A DNA stretch of 22,998 bases from a virus. Shown here piece after piece: positions 5,650 through 19,034 of the stretch. The first letter of the stretch is position 1. Every line of letters starts with the position of its first letter. The DNA is taken from positions 1-22,998 of the IMG/VR virus record IMGVR_UViG_3300024255_000172, one strand, 5' to 3'. The position numbers were made by a program, and so were the translations under genes. The notes beneath the pieces were generated by a model, which was not told the origin of the DNA, ran no database searches, and saw only the letters and a list, made by a program, of their open reading frames with translations.

Positions 5650-5823
5650 ATGGAAGTTTTTACTCTGAAAGAATGGGAAGACAATTTTGATGATCTTATG
5701 GAGAGAGTTGAAAACGGTGAAACCATAGGTATTGTAAGAGAAGATGGTAAGGCAGCAGTCATGATGCCTGCAGATGATGAACTAATACGAATACACACTG
5801 AGAACAATAACGAAGCTCAGTAG
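5650..5823 (+). CDS. Phd/YefM-like orphan antitoxin (57 aa)
   Basis: The start MEVFTLKEWEDNFDDLMERV followed by ENGETIGIVREDGKAAVM has the fold pattern of the prevent-host-death (Phd/YefM) antitoxin N-terminus: short strand, helix, ENGE turn, then two strands ending in the A-A-V-M/L signature. In that family this domain dimerises and binds DNA, and a C-terminal tail neutralises a Doc, RelE or other toxin. Here the tail is short (DDELIRIHTENNNEAQ) and no toxin gene is next to it; the downstream 500 bp are RNA genes. It may be an anti-toxin decoy against host systems or a small repressor; that is inference. The ATG abuts the previous stop with no gap. Confidence 0.75.
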   Translation: MEVFTLKEWEDNFDDLMERVENGETIGIVREDGKAAVMMPADDELIRIHTENNNEAQ

Positions 5824-5879
5824 TTCATCATCTGCTCGTGAGACTTGGTAGTCAGGGGAGTTTTATAAACTCTTTCCTT

Positions 5880-5952
5880 GCCCGTTTGGCCCTCTGGTGA
5901 AGGCGATCTGCTCATAACAGATAGAAGGTCGGATCGTAACCGACAACGGGCA
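5880..5952 (+). tRNA. tRNA with CAU anticodon (elongator Met or Ile2)
   Basis: Folds as a full cloverleaf. Acceptor GCCCGTT/AACGGGC pairs perfectly. The D stem is GCC/GGC, the anticodon stem ATCTG/CAGAT with loop CTCATAA, the variable loop is 5 nt, and the T stem is GTCGG/CCGAC with loop ATCGTAA. The discriminator is A5952 and CCA is not encoded. The first pair is G-C, so it is not an initiator tRNA. CAU could be Met, or Ile2 if C34 becomes lysidine; AUA codons are common in this phage, which makes Ile2 attractive, but sequence alone does not decide. Confidence 0.88.
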
Positions 5953-5955
5953 TTA

Positions 5956-6116: not shown

Positions 6117-6127
6117 TGTAATGTCTT

Positions 6128-6202
6128 GCCCGTGTAGTCCAATTGGCAGTAGACACGAAACTTAAAATTTCGACAGTATCGGTTCGAGTCCGATCACGGG
6201 TA
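6128..6202 (+). tRNA. tRNA-Leu (UAA) with short variable arm
   Basis: Cloverleaf: acceptor GCCCGTG/CACGGGT (six Watson-Crick pairs plus a terminal G-U), D stem GTC/GAC with GG in the loop, anticodon stem CGAAA/TTTCG with loop CTTAAAA (anticodon UAA), variable region of about 5 nt, T stem ATCGG/CCGAT with loop TTCGAGT, discriminator A6202, no encoded CCA. UAA reads UUA, a heavily used Leu codon in this AT-rich phage. Bacterial tRNA-Leu normally has a long class II variable arm, which is missing here. Identity is therefore from the anticodon and A73 only. Confidence 0.85.
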
Positions 6203-6297
6203 TTAAAAGGGGAAGGAGTTAGCCCCACTAGATGTAAAGTCACTCTGCGAGAAATGAAGATTATATGATAGGGTTTTCTTTGGTGAGTGAATAACAT

Positions 6298-15439: not shown

Positions 15440-16066
15440 ATGGAAAAATTAGAAGCAATAGTGGATGAATTTCCTTTTCCTCATATGATTATTGAGAATT
15501 TTTATAATGAACATGAATTAAAACTTATATGGGAAGAATTAAACTTTTATACTAAACCGGGAAAATTTTTAGAAGCAAAATATTATGGTGGAATAGTTGA
15601 TTATACAAACTCTAAAGCACTTTTATTAGATGAAATATATAAAAATCATAGACCTTTATCAAATATTTTAACCGTAAATAGAAAGTTATTTAATAGCGGA
15701 GTCTTAGATCATTTTGCTAATATACATCAATGTTGTATTTTAGCAACTGATTCAAATTACGATACAACCAAAGTAAGATACTATCACGATGGAGAGTATT
15801 ACGATCCTCATACTGACAAATGCCAACCATTTTTAGGATTTTCATATTTTTATAAGGAACCAAAAAAATTTACAGGTGGAGAATTATTTTTCCCACAATA
15901 TGATTACGAGATTACTTGTAATAATAATTCTATGATTATCTTTCCTGGATGGGTGGAACATGGAGTTACTAAAGTTGAAATTGATGAGTCTGATTACTTT
16001 GATGGATTTGGTCGTTATGCAATTACTTCATTTTTTGGACGTAAACAAATTGTAGGGGGAAAATGA
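15440..16066 (+). CDS. 2OG-Fe(II) oxygenase, prolyl-hydroxylase-like (208 aa)
   Basis: Likely iron- and 2-oxoglutarate-dependent oxygenase. The iron triad is visible as H124-x-D126 (YYDPHTDK) and distal H174 (GWVEHGV); R192 (FGRYAIT) is placed to bind 2-oxoglutarate. The conserved strand order with GGELFFP between them fits the double-stranded beta-helix of the P4H-like group. Length is normal for phage members. Substrate is unknown: family members hydroxylate proline or lysine side chains, nucleic acid bases or small molecules. The next gene is a second oxygenase with a 4-base ATGA overlap, and the preceding gene is the polyglycine adhesin, so a fibre protein is one possible substrate (inference). 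Confidence 0.88.
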   Translation: MEKLEAIVDEFPFPHMIIENFYNEHELKLIWEELNFYTKPGKFLEAKYYGGIVDYTNSKALLLDEIYKNHRPLSNILTVNRKLFNSGVLDHFANIHQCCILATDSNYDTTKVRYYHDGEYYDPHTDKCQPFLGFSYFYKEPKKFTGGELFFPQYDYEITCNNNSMIIFPGWVEHGVTKVEIDESDYFDGFGRYAITSFFGRKQIVGGK

Positions 16067-16632
16067 TAAATCAAAATTTTATATCAATTTATGATGATAT
16101 CTTATCAAAAGAATATTGTGATATTATCATTAATGAATTTGAGAGTAAATTAGACCAACATCGTAAAGGTACAGTTGGAAATAATGTTGTCAAACCAAAA
16201 GTTAAAAAATCTACAGATATTTCTTATAGAACAACTAACAATTGTGATACTGTTTCTATTATTTTAAACACCTTAGAACTTGGTATAAATGAATATAGAA
16301 ATAATTACCCTGATGTAGATCACATAGGTTCTTGGACTATTGACCCACTCTTTAATATACAAAAATATAAACCAAATGAAGCATATTTCGGTTCACATTG
16401 TGAATCTGCATCAATAAGATCATGTAAAAGAGTTCTTGCCTGGATGTTCTACTTAAATACCGTAAATGATAATGGAGGAACAAGGTTTCCAACATATGAT
16501 CTTACTATAAATGCCAGAATGGGTAGATTAGTTATTTGGCCTGCATATTGGACTCATCAACATCATGGTATTGTAAGTGAAACTGAAACAAAATATATTG
16601 CTACAGGATGGCATATATTTAAAGATACTTGA
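16063..16632 (+). CDS. Second 2OG-Fe(II) oxygenase-like protein (189 aa)
   Basis: Predicted 2-oxoglutarate/Fe(II) oxygenase distinct from its neighbour. The double-stranded beta-helix core is seen as YFGSHCES (H112-x-E114), VLAWMFYLN, NGGTRFP and WPAYWTHQHHGIVS (distal histidines 165-168), followed by ETKYIATGWHIF, where a Lys near 177 would replace Arg as the 2-oxoglutarate contact. H-x-E instead of H-x-D is a less usual iron ligand pair but occurs in the superfamily. It overlaps the upstream oxygenase by 4 bases and ends right at a promoter-like TTGACA. The pair probably act on the same or related substrates; the substrate cannot be read from sequence. Confidence 0.82.
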   Translation: MINQNFISIYDDILSKEYCDIIINEFESKLDQHRKGTVGNNVVKPKVKKSTDISYRTTNNCDTVSIILNTLELGINEYRNNYPDVDHIGSWTIDPLFNIQKYKPNEAYFGSHCESASIRSCKRVLAWMFYLNTVNDNGGTRFPTYDLTINARMGRLVIWPAYWTHQHHGIVSETETKYIATGWHIFKDT

Positions 16633-16699: not shown

Positions 16700-16732
16700 A
16701 ACCGTCCACCAGGTCGCACTGGGGACGGTTTT
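16700..16732 (+). terminator. Terminator-like hairpin before the helicase promoter
   Basis: AACCGTCC (16700-16707) pairs perfectly with GGACGGTT (16723-16730), followed by only a short T run (four T in total including the last stem bases). It would end late fibre/oxygenase transcripts before the early promoter at 16737. The weak T tract keeps confidence moderate. Confidence 0.6.
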
Positions 16733-16734
16733 CT

Positions 16735-16757
16735 GCTATAATAAGAAGGTAATCGAG
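16735..16757 (+). promoter_or_regulatory. Early promoter, extended -10 type, with conserved leader block
   Basis: TG-C-TATAAT (TATAAT at 16737-16742) is an extended -10 promoter without a good -35 box. The following bases AAGAAGGTAATC match the leaders at 5437 and 18568 (consensus A-n-n-AAGGTAA-k-C). The helicase start codon lies 23 nt beyond the -10 box. Confidence 0.75.
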
Positions 16758-16765
16758 GGACACCT

Positions 16766-17956
16766 TTGACCATCACTCTCAGACCCCATCAACGCAAAGC
16801 ACTGAATGAGATGCTGGCATATGACAAAGGTCAGCTGATCATCCCTACGGGTGGTGGTAAGACCTTGTGTATGATACACGATATTATTGAGAATCAAAAG
16901 TATATTGATAATGGTTCTACTATTGTTGTTGTAGCACCACGTATTCTGCTTGCTGAACAACTTTGTAGTGAGTTTCTGGAAGTCATTGATACAACTCACA
17001 CACATGTGATGCATGTTCATAGTGGTGAGACTTCACACTTCTCTACAACAAAAGCAGAAAAGATCAATCTGTTTGTAAATACAGCAAGAACTGCTGGTGA
17101 GAATGTAGTAATCTTTACCACATATCACTCTCTACATCGTCTTGTAGAAGCAGATATCGAAGTCAATACGATTTACTTTGATGAAGCACATAACTCAGTC
17201 CAACGTAACTTTTTCCCTGCTACGGAGCACTTTTCTGCTGATGCTGATCGGTGTTATTTCTTCACTGCTACTCGTCGTACTTCTGCAACTATTTTTAAAC
17301 CCGGTATGAATGATACTGAGGTATATGGTGATGTAATTTATCGTGTTCCTGCCACCAAACTGGTTGATGGTGGTTATATTCTTCCTCCTCAAATCAAAGC
17401 AAAAAAGTTTGAGGTTCTTAAGGCAAATGAGATTTCTGCCGACCGTGACTGCAACAATATTGTAGAAACTTTAGAAGAGAATAACACAAGTAAAGTTCTT
17501 GTTTGTGTTAAGAGTGCTAAACAACTTATTAATCTTATGTCGCAAACTGATTTTGCTATGCGACTGAATAATATGGGTTATTCTTTTCTTTATATCACTT
17601 CAAAAACAGGAGCGATTATTGACGGTCAAAAAGTCAATCGTGAGGTTTTCTTTAATACTCTGAATGCTTGGGGCAAAGACCCCTCTAAGAAGTTTGTTTG
17701 TCTCCATCGATCTATTTTGAGTGAAGGTATTTCTGTTAATGGTCTTGAGTCTGTTATTTTTCTCCGCAATATGGATGTAATTGAGATGACTCAAACTATC
17801 GGAAGAGTTCTTCGCACTGCTCCTAATAAAACCTACGGACTTTGTGTTGTTCCTGTTTATTCGCAGGTTGGTATTGCTACGGAGAAACGTATGCAGAATG
17901 TTGTTGATACTGTCTTTGGTCGTGGTGAGATGCTTGATAGTGTAGTCAATCGATAG
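16766..17956 (+). CDS. SF2 DEAH-box helicase, SSL2/RadD/UvsW-like (396 aa, TTG start)
   Basis: ATP-dependent nucleic-acid helicase or translocase. Motifs in order: LRPHQ (Q-motif like), Walker A PTGGGKT (27-33), VVAPRILLAEQL (motif Ia), DEAH (139-142), TAT (167-169, motif III), then in the second RecA domain ILSEGISVNGLESVIF (motif V) and QTIGRVLR (343-350, motif VI with arginine fingers). The family repairs or remodels branched DNA; T4 UvsW is the phage paralogue, but this protein begins directly at the helicase core and lacks UvsW's N-terminal domain, so a simple uvsW label is not justified. The start is TTG 16766, with GAGGGA upstream and the same 23-nt spacing from the -10 box as the 18591 gene. 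Next ATG would be residue 16 and would cut off motif Q. Confidence 0.88.
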   Translation: MTITLRPHQRKALNEMLAYDKGQLIIPTGGGKTLCMIHDIIENQKYIDNGSTIVVVAPRILLAEQLCSEFLEVIDTTHTHVMHVHSGETSHFSTTKAEKINLFVNTARTAGENVVIFTTYHSLHRLVEADIEVNTIYFDEAHNSVQRNFFPATEHFSADADRCYFFTATRRTSATIFKPGMNDTEVYGDVIYRVPATKLVDGGYILPPQIKAKKFEVLKANEISADRDCNNIVETLEENNTSKVLVCVKSAKQLINLMSQTDFAMRLNNMGYSFLYITSKTGAIIDGQKVNREVFFNTLNAWGKDPSKKFVCLHRSILSEGISVNGLESVIFLRNMDVIEMTQTIGRVLRTAPNKTYGLCVVPVYSQVGIATEKRMQNVVDTVFGRGEMLDSVVNR

Positions 17957-17976
17957 ATATATGGGAGGCATCAAGC

Positions 17977-18042
17977 GTAGTCAGGGGTGATAAAACTTGT
18001 GTAAGTCCTCACATAAATAAATGTAATCATACCCCTGATTAC
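17977..18042 (+). promoter_or_regulatory. Long hairpin next to the endonuclease start, with late promoter in its loop
   Basis: Arm 17977-17989 (GTAGTCAGGGGTG) pairs with 18030-18042 (TACCCCTGATTAC) over 13 pairs including two G-U, ending one base before ATG 18044. The 40-nt loop holds CATAAATA (18012-18019), a T4-type late promoter. Read-through RNA from the helicase would contain both arms and block the start; RNA begun at the late promoter would lack the first arm and be open. T4 I-TevI is known to use this arrangement. Confidence 0.65.
18012..18019 (+). promoter_or_regulatory. T4-type late promoter for the homing endonuclease
   Basis: CATAAATA, seven of eight to the T4 late consensus, 24 nt before ATG 18044 and inside the hairpin loop described for 17977-18042. 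Confidence 0.6.
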
Positions 18043-18043
18043 G

Positions 18044-18523
18044 ATGAAAGAATACTACACTTACGCTTACTTGCGTGAAGACGGAACGCCCTACTATGTC
18101 GGTAAGGGTAAAGGAAATCGTGCATATGTTAAGCACGGACTTCACACTGTTCCACCAAAAGAAAGAATACTTATCCTCAAAAATAACCTAACTGAAGAAG
18201 ATGCATTTAAGCACGAAGTTTATATGATTGCTGTATTCGGTAGAAAGGATATAAAAACTGGTATTCTATACAATAGAACTGACGGTGGATTAGGTGGAGA
18301 CACTGGATATTTTGGCACCGAAAGACATAAGAAAGATTGTAAGAAAAGAACTGGGGAGAAGAACAGTTTTTATGGTCGTAGGCACTCCCCAGAGACCCTA
18401 CAAGCAATGAAAGAATCCCTAAAGGGTAGAAGTGCTTGGAACAATCGAAAATACCTTCCAGAAGAGCAGGTAAGTTCCCATGCACTCTATATGAGAGAGT
18501 GGAGAAAGAAGAGACAATCTTAA
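18044..18523 (+). CDS. GIY-YIG homing endonuclease with NUMOD3 motifs (159 aa)
   Basis: Free-standing homing endonuclease that would cut DNA lacking the element and spread by repair copying. The catalytic domain is residues 1-85: [18 protein letters not shown] carries the GIY/YIG strands, then N25-R26 (catalytic Arg), E58 ([10 protein letters not shown], metal ligand) and N77 (ILYNRTDGG). All the expected residues are present, so it is probably active. Residues about 91-127 (ERHKKDC then [19 protein letters not shown]) are NUMOD3-type DNA-binding motifs, followed by a basic tail. No intron splice structure is visible and flanking genes look intact, so it appears intergenic. Its leader hairpin and internal late promoter suggest expression only late in infection. 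Confidence 0.92.
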
Positions 18524-18559
18524 AACTGGCACATTGCCTTCCCACACCCCCCTCTCTCT

Positions 18560-18582
18560 GCTATAATACAAAGGTAATCAAA
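18560..18582 (+). promoter_or_regulatory. Early promoter with conserved leader block
   Basis: CTGC-TATAAT (TATAAT 18562-18567) is identical to the helicase promoter over CTGCTATAATA, followed by CAAAGGTAATC. A partial -35 TTCCCA (18539-18544, four of six) lies 17 nt upstream. The start codon is 23 nt beyond the -10 box. It heads the small-gene operon that runs to the end of the window. Confidence 0.75.
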
Positions 18583-18590
18583 GGAACACC

Positions 18591-19034
18591 ATGAAAGTTG
18601 CAGTGACTCTTTATGAATCTGGAACAACTTTTGAAGAGGTTGTCATTGCTCGTGATTATCAGCAAGCAAATCAGAAAGCACTTGCACGTAATCCTGGGTC
18701 TACAATTGTAAGCACCACTGCTATTTTTGATCAACCTGATCATGATACTTCTTGGACAGAAGATACATCATATAATGAAGATTATTCTTCCTCCTCTAGT
18801 TCTTCTAGTGGACTTGGTGGACTTGCAGTTCTAGCACTTGGTGGATGGTTAGCATGGGAAGCATGGAAGTTGGGTTCTGCTGTTGTTATGACTGCTTGGC
18901 AGTGGATTGTAGGTGTCGCACAATGGTCTTGGGGTTTATTCTCTTGGATTCCATTTATGTCACCACAACTTCTTGTTGGTCTTATTTTTGGTTTCTTCTT
19001 TATCGTTCTTATTCTTGGAGCACTTGATGACTGA
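18591..19034 (+). CDS. Predicted small membrane protein with Ser-rich linker (147 aa)
   Basis: Not assigned to a family. Residues 1-50 form a soluble alpha/beta domain (MKVAVTLYESGTTFEEVVIA). Residues about 51-70 are acidic and then a run of eight Ser. The C-terminal half is hydrophobic with many Trp: a first membrane segment around GLAVLALGGWLAWEAW, an amphipathic Trp-rich stretch (WQWIVGVAQWSWGLFSWI), and a second segment LLVGLIFGFFFIVLILG near the end. Expression from an early promoter makes a lysis holin unlikely as the only role; a membrane-targeted host-takeover protein is possible. AAAGGA is a good ribosome site 7 nt before ATG. The stop overlaps the next start by 8 bases. Confidence 0.8.
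   Translation: MKVAVTLYESGTTFEEVVIARDYQQANQKALARNPGSTIVSTTAIFDQPDHDTSWTEDTSYNEDYSSSSSSSSGLGGLAVLALGGWLAWEAWKLGSAVVMTAWQWIVGVAQWSWGLFSWIPFMSPQLLVGLIFGFFFIVLILGALDD

Follow-up and report, generated by a model that had tools for sequence, protein, structure and literature searches.

Our results indicate that a free-standing GIY-YIG endonuclease gene in a cyanophage fragment is preceded by a leader whose last 14 nt, up to the ATG, pair with an upstream arm, and that a late-type promoter box lies in the loop between the two arms. This pairing is real and rare, and the leader belongs to a mobile cassette. We consider it probable that the 5′ end of the cassette is a cis-acting translation lock, opened by the promoter inside its loop. 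Our confidence comes from the structure, the covariation, the position of the box and the cassette membership, alongside which we infer promoter activity, read-through and a block to translation.

The leader of the window endonuclease

The window, that is, the whole 22,998-base record analysed here, carries phage tail-type genes, two tRNAs (tRNA-Met(CAT), 5879-5953, and tRNA-Leu(TAA), 6127-6203), a helicase gene and then the free-standing endonuclease. With 84% matches between the flanking genes and Synechococcus phage S-SKS1, the window is, by sequence, a fragment of a T4-like cyanophage. It also contains a Phd/YefM antitoxin-like small protein just under the Pfam cut-off (5650-5823) and an adjoining pair of 2OG-Fe(II) oxygenase genes (15440-16066 and 16063-16632).

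The DEAD/ResIII helicase (Pfam; 16766-17956, this and all following window features being on the plus strand) is also present in S-SKS1 and in many cyanophages. Direct reading places a terminator-like hairpin, ACCGTCC...GGACGGTTTTC (16701-16733), 5′ of the helicase unit, followed by TGCTATAAT (16734-16742), a candidate extended -10 (early-type) promoter of the helicase. There is no clear terminator between this box and the leader, and the helicase message would read into the leader. In T4, uvsW is a late gene. To the right of the cassette, a second TGCTATAAT promoter candidate (18559-18567), common to the empty S-SKS1 locus, precedes the next gene (at 18591).

The endonuclease (18044-18523, 159 aa) matches NUMOD3 in Pfam and the homing endonuclease family phrog_314, and its best PDB sequence match is the I-TevI DNA-binding domain (1i3j), in agreement with the GIY-YIG identity initially assigned. 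Its AlphaFold model gave a weak match to the UvrC GIY-YIG fold (E 0.1), and the GIY-YIG core Arg and Glu (residue 26 and E58) are invariant in 19 relatives. Relatives are numerous in viral contigs. Note that three GIY-YIG/NUMOD3 endonucleases (MW015081.1, 62515-63273; MN695335.1, 41542-42165; PV340852.1, 156271-156693) are misannotated as 'translation initiation factor 2'.

The lock stem is formed by the 5′ arm CGTAGTCAGGGGTG (S2, 17976-17989) and the 3′ arm TACCCCTGATTACG (18030-18043), with 14/14 positions paired and G-U pairs at 17980/18039 and 17989/18030. The initial annotation had described 13 pairs ending one base before the ATG; the stem is there, but an extra C-G pair brings it to 14 and its last pair touches the ATG at 18044. 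The T4-type late box placed in the loop by the same annotation was borne out in both sequence and position: CATAAATA (18012-18019) lies 24 nt 5′ of the ATG, with a predicted start at ~18025, and corresponds to NATAAATA, the published cyanophage late promoter (PMC2984593). It is the sole promoter-like box in this loop, which has no -10-like box. ATAAATA itself is not enriched in the window (8 copies vs 10.5 expected by chance); 8/8 are on the coding strand and several lie 20-40 nt 5′ of ORF starts.

The 5′ arm sits inside the loop of a further hairpin, P1, made of two short helices flanking a conserved internal loop, CA/GTAAGT. By direct reading, the 5′ strands are GAGG (outer, 17965-17968) and CAAG (inner, 17972-17975); the leader alignment and its covariation place the 3′ strands at CTTG (inner, 17996-17999) and CCTC (outer, 18007-18010), the latter just after the conserved GTAAGT (18001-18006). 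As read from their complementarity, P1 and the lock can form an H-type pseudoknot, although the role of P1 may be limited to offering the 5′ arm in a form that pairs quickly.

When folded, as the initial annotation had suggested, the leader formed the lock stem in both the minimum-energy and the centroid structures, and an equally good stem arose in just 2/3000 dinucleotide shuffles of the leader (17957-18043). The predicted unpaired probability of the start region was 0.10 in the long RNA vs 0.61 in the short RNA. Since the z value for folding of the whole fragment was only -2.1, the strong evidence for the lock is comparative. At gathering score, Rfam matched only a tRNA in the window, and seven relative loci gave chance-level matches only; with no Rfam match for leaders of class A or class B (defined below), a self-splicing element or known RNA family was ruled out.

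Covariation and the mobile cassette

Homologous leaders retain a stem of 12-16 bp up to the ATG with wholly different arms. We aligned 49 of these leaders, which share the layout of the window leader (class A), with MAFFT, using shuffles and slid registers as controls. Over 24 pairs x 49 leaders, 96.3% of the cells were paired and 17/24 pairs had changed on both sides, so the compensatory changes that the initial annotation had proposed to look for are present. The covariation score was 0.333 vs 0.112 after shuffling, 0/500 shuffles reached the observed percentage paired or score, and slid registers were 31-47% paired. Although kinship among the sequences inflates these counts, an effect of this size and the exchange of entire arms, for example TTGGCG/CGCCAA vs GGGGTGA/ACCCC, go well beyond that in this alignment. 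Helices 1 and 2 of P1 also covary. Among imperfect pairs, G-U is commoner than A-C (8:1 for class A; 22:11 for class B, the sister class described below), an indication that the pairing molecule is RNA of the coding (sense) strand.

The TAAATA core, nearly invariant and among the most conserved columns, lies 20-26 nt 5′ of the ATG, and the 3′ arm ends 0-1 nt from the ATG in 50/54 class A leaders. The loop holds a -10-like box in 35/54 and TGNTANNNT in 21/54, preceding or overlapping the late box. For comparison with other genes the stem-score cut-off was set at 11, since 8.5 was too lax (85/327 other late-box leaders pass). The box plus arms of score >=11 were found in every class A leader (54/54) and in 47/70 of class B, vs 30/327 non-selected control genes whose late box lies equally far from the start; by inspection, ~25 of those 30 are themselves nuclease or NUMOD genes. 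Loss of the pairing with the gene kept, which the initial annotation had named as evidence against its reading, is not what the cassette family shows; box plus arms are nevertheless missing from 27/151 GIY-YIG leaders, mostly in other lineages or gene contexts.

In S-SKS1, the same gene pair has no endonuclease between its members. A second comparison, for a relative, is offered by the isolates Sf-CH5 and Sf-CH8, whose aligned flanks are 99.7% identical: the class A cassette is missing from Sf-CH8, with the 5′ break at the first base of P1. A search for further empty sites among phages gave one useful locus. Near the first insertion, Sf-CH5 has a second endonuclease insertion (L147:2220-2792, compared with L151) that is also absent from Sf-CH8 and has no leader.

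A search with the P1 pattern, made without the protein, found the leader before GIY-YIG genes, HNH genes (phrog_374, NUMOD4/HNH_3), other GIY-YIG genes and unassigned nuclease-like genes; Pfam left several cargo proteins unnamed, some of which PHROGs named. The pattern had no match in the bacterial/archaeal genome collection. Twice the leader stood before no clear ORF. L127 (minus strand, ~2400-2450) and L089 have class A arms and a late box with no nuclease ORF behind, and are either decayed cassettes or in another use. Among relatives, the helicase site alone accounts for eight distinct arm pairs, and its cargo is found in three kinds of state. The initial annotation had left the control as 'convergent or inherited'; within cyanophages the leader is inherited and shuffled between cargoes, and it has no obvious kinship to that of T4 I-TevI.

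Two ideas about the arms were rejected. The insertion site does not determine the arms in the manner of a guide, since eight arm pairs occur at one site and one arm pair at several sites. Nor was it upheld that the arms of a single genome are strictly orthogonal: one genome (G008) has two cassettes with common arms, and cross pairing between arms of different leaders is frequent in class A.

Class B leaders

A further 70 GIY-YIG leaders, class B, are arranged in another order than class A: late box 1, the 5′ arm hairpin, a terminator-like hairpin with a T run, late box 2, the 3′ arm and the ATG. Box 1 is present in 67/70 leaders (vs 3 TAAATA in 4983 nt of background) and the terminator-like hairpin in 63/70. 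The start region after box 1 and that after box 2 read alike, NTANTGC. A scan anchored on the terminator tail and box 2 only, with the arms not used and an arm score of 8.5 or more counted, found at least 120 distinct places, which precede several nuclease families; among the matches listed, 112/120 had arms and 109 of these had box 1. Box 1 was missing from the two empty sites examined, and its origin as a native late promoter of the target was ruled out at both comparable sites (S-B68 vs S-H34/S-N03; L046 vs S-SRM01).

From this layout, the predicted RNA 1 would be ~57 nt long, and its computed interaction with the mRNA leader had a median of -14.4 kcal/mol for its own leader vs -2.7 kcal/mol in crosses. 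We give an even chance to the reading that class B encodes a ~57-nt antisense RNA on the same strand, directly upstream of the second late promoter, from which the endonuclease mRNA would be made, the layout being that of a predicted tandem antisense RNA gene. If true, class B would be a self-contained RNA brake borne by selfish endonuclease cassettes, spread over several nuclease folds and dozens of loop sequences. The order promoter-hairpin-terminator-promoter-arm-ORF is seen in L144, L145 (e.g. L145:1410-1494) and ~60 other class B leaders; L147 is class A.

We take the c4 antisense layout to be similar to that of class B. In phages P1/P7, c4 lies directly upstream of its target and on the same strand, in which it resembles class B only (Citron and Schuster 1990, cited in PMC8198154); class B differs in its predicted own late promoter and terminator and in having homing endonucleases as targets. 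For tandem antisense RNAs such as c4 of phage P1, we drew on PMC8198154 and on the Weinberg list in PMC2864571. The c4-type arrangement, with a separate promoter and 3′ end ahead of a same-strand target, is seen in layout in the class B relatives but not in the window leader. CfrI of cyanophage S-PM2 is, like class B, an antisense RNA that touches a cyanophage homing endonuclease, but it is an opposite-strand transcript of ~225 nt over psbA and F-CphI (PMC2984593).

A proposed RNA lock with a promoter inside

We propose, for class A, that RNA entering from upstream (the helicase message in this case) would be locked: its 5′ arm, offered in the loop of P1, would pair with the 14 nt before the ATG and keep ribosomes off the endonuclease start. 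Transcription from the loop promoter, here the T4-type late box only, would begin ~6 nt after the box, and because the 5′ arm is left out, the product would be an open mRNA with a 19-nt leader. The endonuclease would be made only from its own promoter, whichever gene the cassette sits behind.

The initial annotation had proposed an early/late switch. The lock over the start site and the late-type box in the loop agree with it, but a purely early/late control is weakened by the relatives. Many class A relatives have a -10-like or TGNTANNNT box in the loop, and early-type RNA that began at such a box would be free of the lock as well; the leader sequences fit better with 'own promoter open, read-through locked' than with 'late open, early locked'. 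In cyanophages, early promoters have been proposed to overlap late ones (PMC2984593). It speaks against the lock that the 3′ arm holds no Shine-Dalgarno sequence to sequester, in the window leader or in the class A leaders examined; what the stem covers is the last 14 nt before the start.

Three other explanations of the window leader were weighed. Its 5′ hairpin could be a transcript in its own right, acting in trans on the endonuclease mRNA by pairing; this is the reading proposed for class B, where the upstream box, the terminator-like hairpin, the arms recovered by the anchored scan and the preference for the own leader all speak for it. However, both the upstream box and the terminator are missing from the window leader, and in class A they occur in 10/54 and 6/54, which makes a trans-acting antisense RNA unlikely here. 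A hairpin that ends the helicase message by processing, stabilisation or termination would suit a stem a few bases after the helicase stop, and processing by RNase E has been discussed for the surroundings of segG, segB and mobE (PMC2988022); yet no T run follows the stem, the 3′ arm is fixed to the ATG and the late box to the loop, and the same leader also stands behind other genes. We regard this explanation as very improbable.

Least probable of all is a palindrome that works as DNA, whether as an operator through which the endonuclease represses its own gene or as a mobile-element end. I-TevI does bind an operator over its late promoter (PMC2988022), and the cassette end coincides with the start of P1. 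Against this, the arms change wholesale and in step, with the eight arm pairs at one helicase site, the same leader precedes unrelated nucleases, and the imperfect pairs are biased towards G-U. An operator over the late box in addition to the lock is possible.

By analogy, an I-TevI-like lock best explains the window leader, and the layout itself is already known. I-TevI was the precedent that the initial annotation had named. In T4 I-TevI, I-TevII, I-TevIII and segB and in Aeh1 mobE, hairpins hide the start on read-through RNA and late promoters bypass them (PMC2988022, PMC3014915). The three I-Tev leaders share with the window a start-covering stem, a late RNA without the 5′ strand and a GIY-YIG/NUMOD3-type protein, but they are intron-encoded and have a Shine-Dalgarno sequence, whereas the window endonuclease is free-standing and has none; they also differ from the window family in lacking its extra P1 hairpin/pseudoknot and its sharing among unrelated nucleases. 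T4 segB and Aeh1 mobE are closer in being free-standing homing endonucleases with a hairpin and a late promoter (PMC2988022); they were described as single cases, whereas here we have a covarying, transferable leader family with P1.

We found no published description of this leader family in the open-access literature. What is new is P1 with its potential pseudoknot, the place of the leader in a mobile cassette, the unrelated cargo nucleases (GIY-YIG, HNH and others) and class B. Free-standing homing endonucleases of T4 have, for the most part, been reported either to lack a promoter or to be under a single control. In this case, the lock and its promoter would form a portable module that moves with the cassette and is exchanged among GIY-YIG, HNH and other nucleases, so that a selfish gene could settle downstream of any gene and not be expressed from it. 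Finally, a simple I-TevI-like form without P1 was also seen: on the minus strand of L352, another GIY-YIG ORF, of 199 aa, follows a plain stem of 21 bp whose loop contains a late box.
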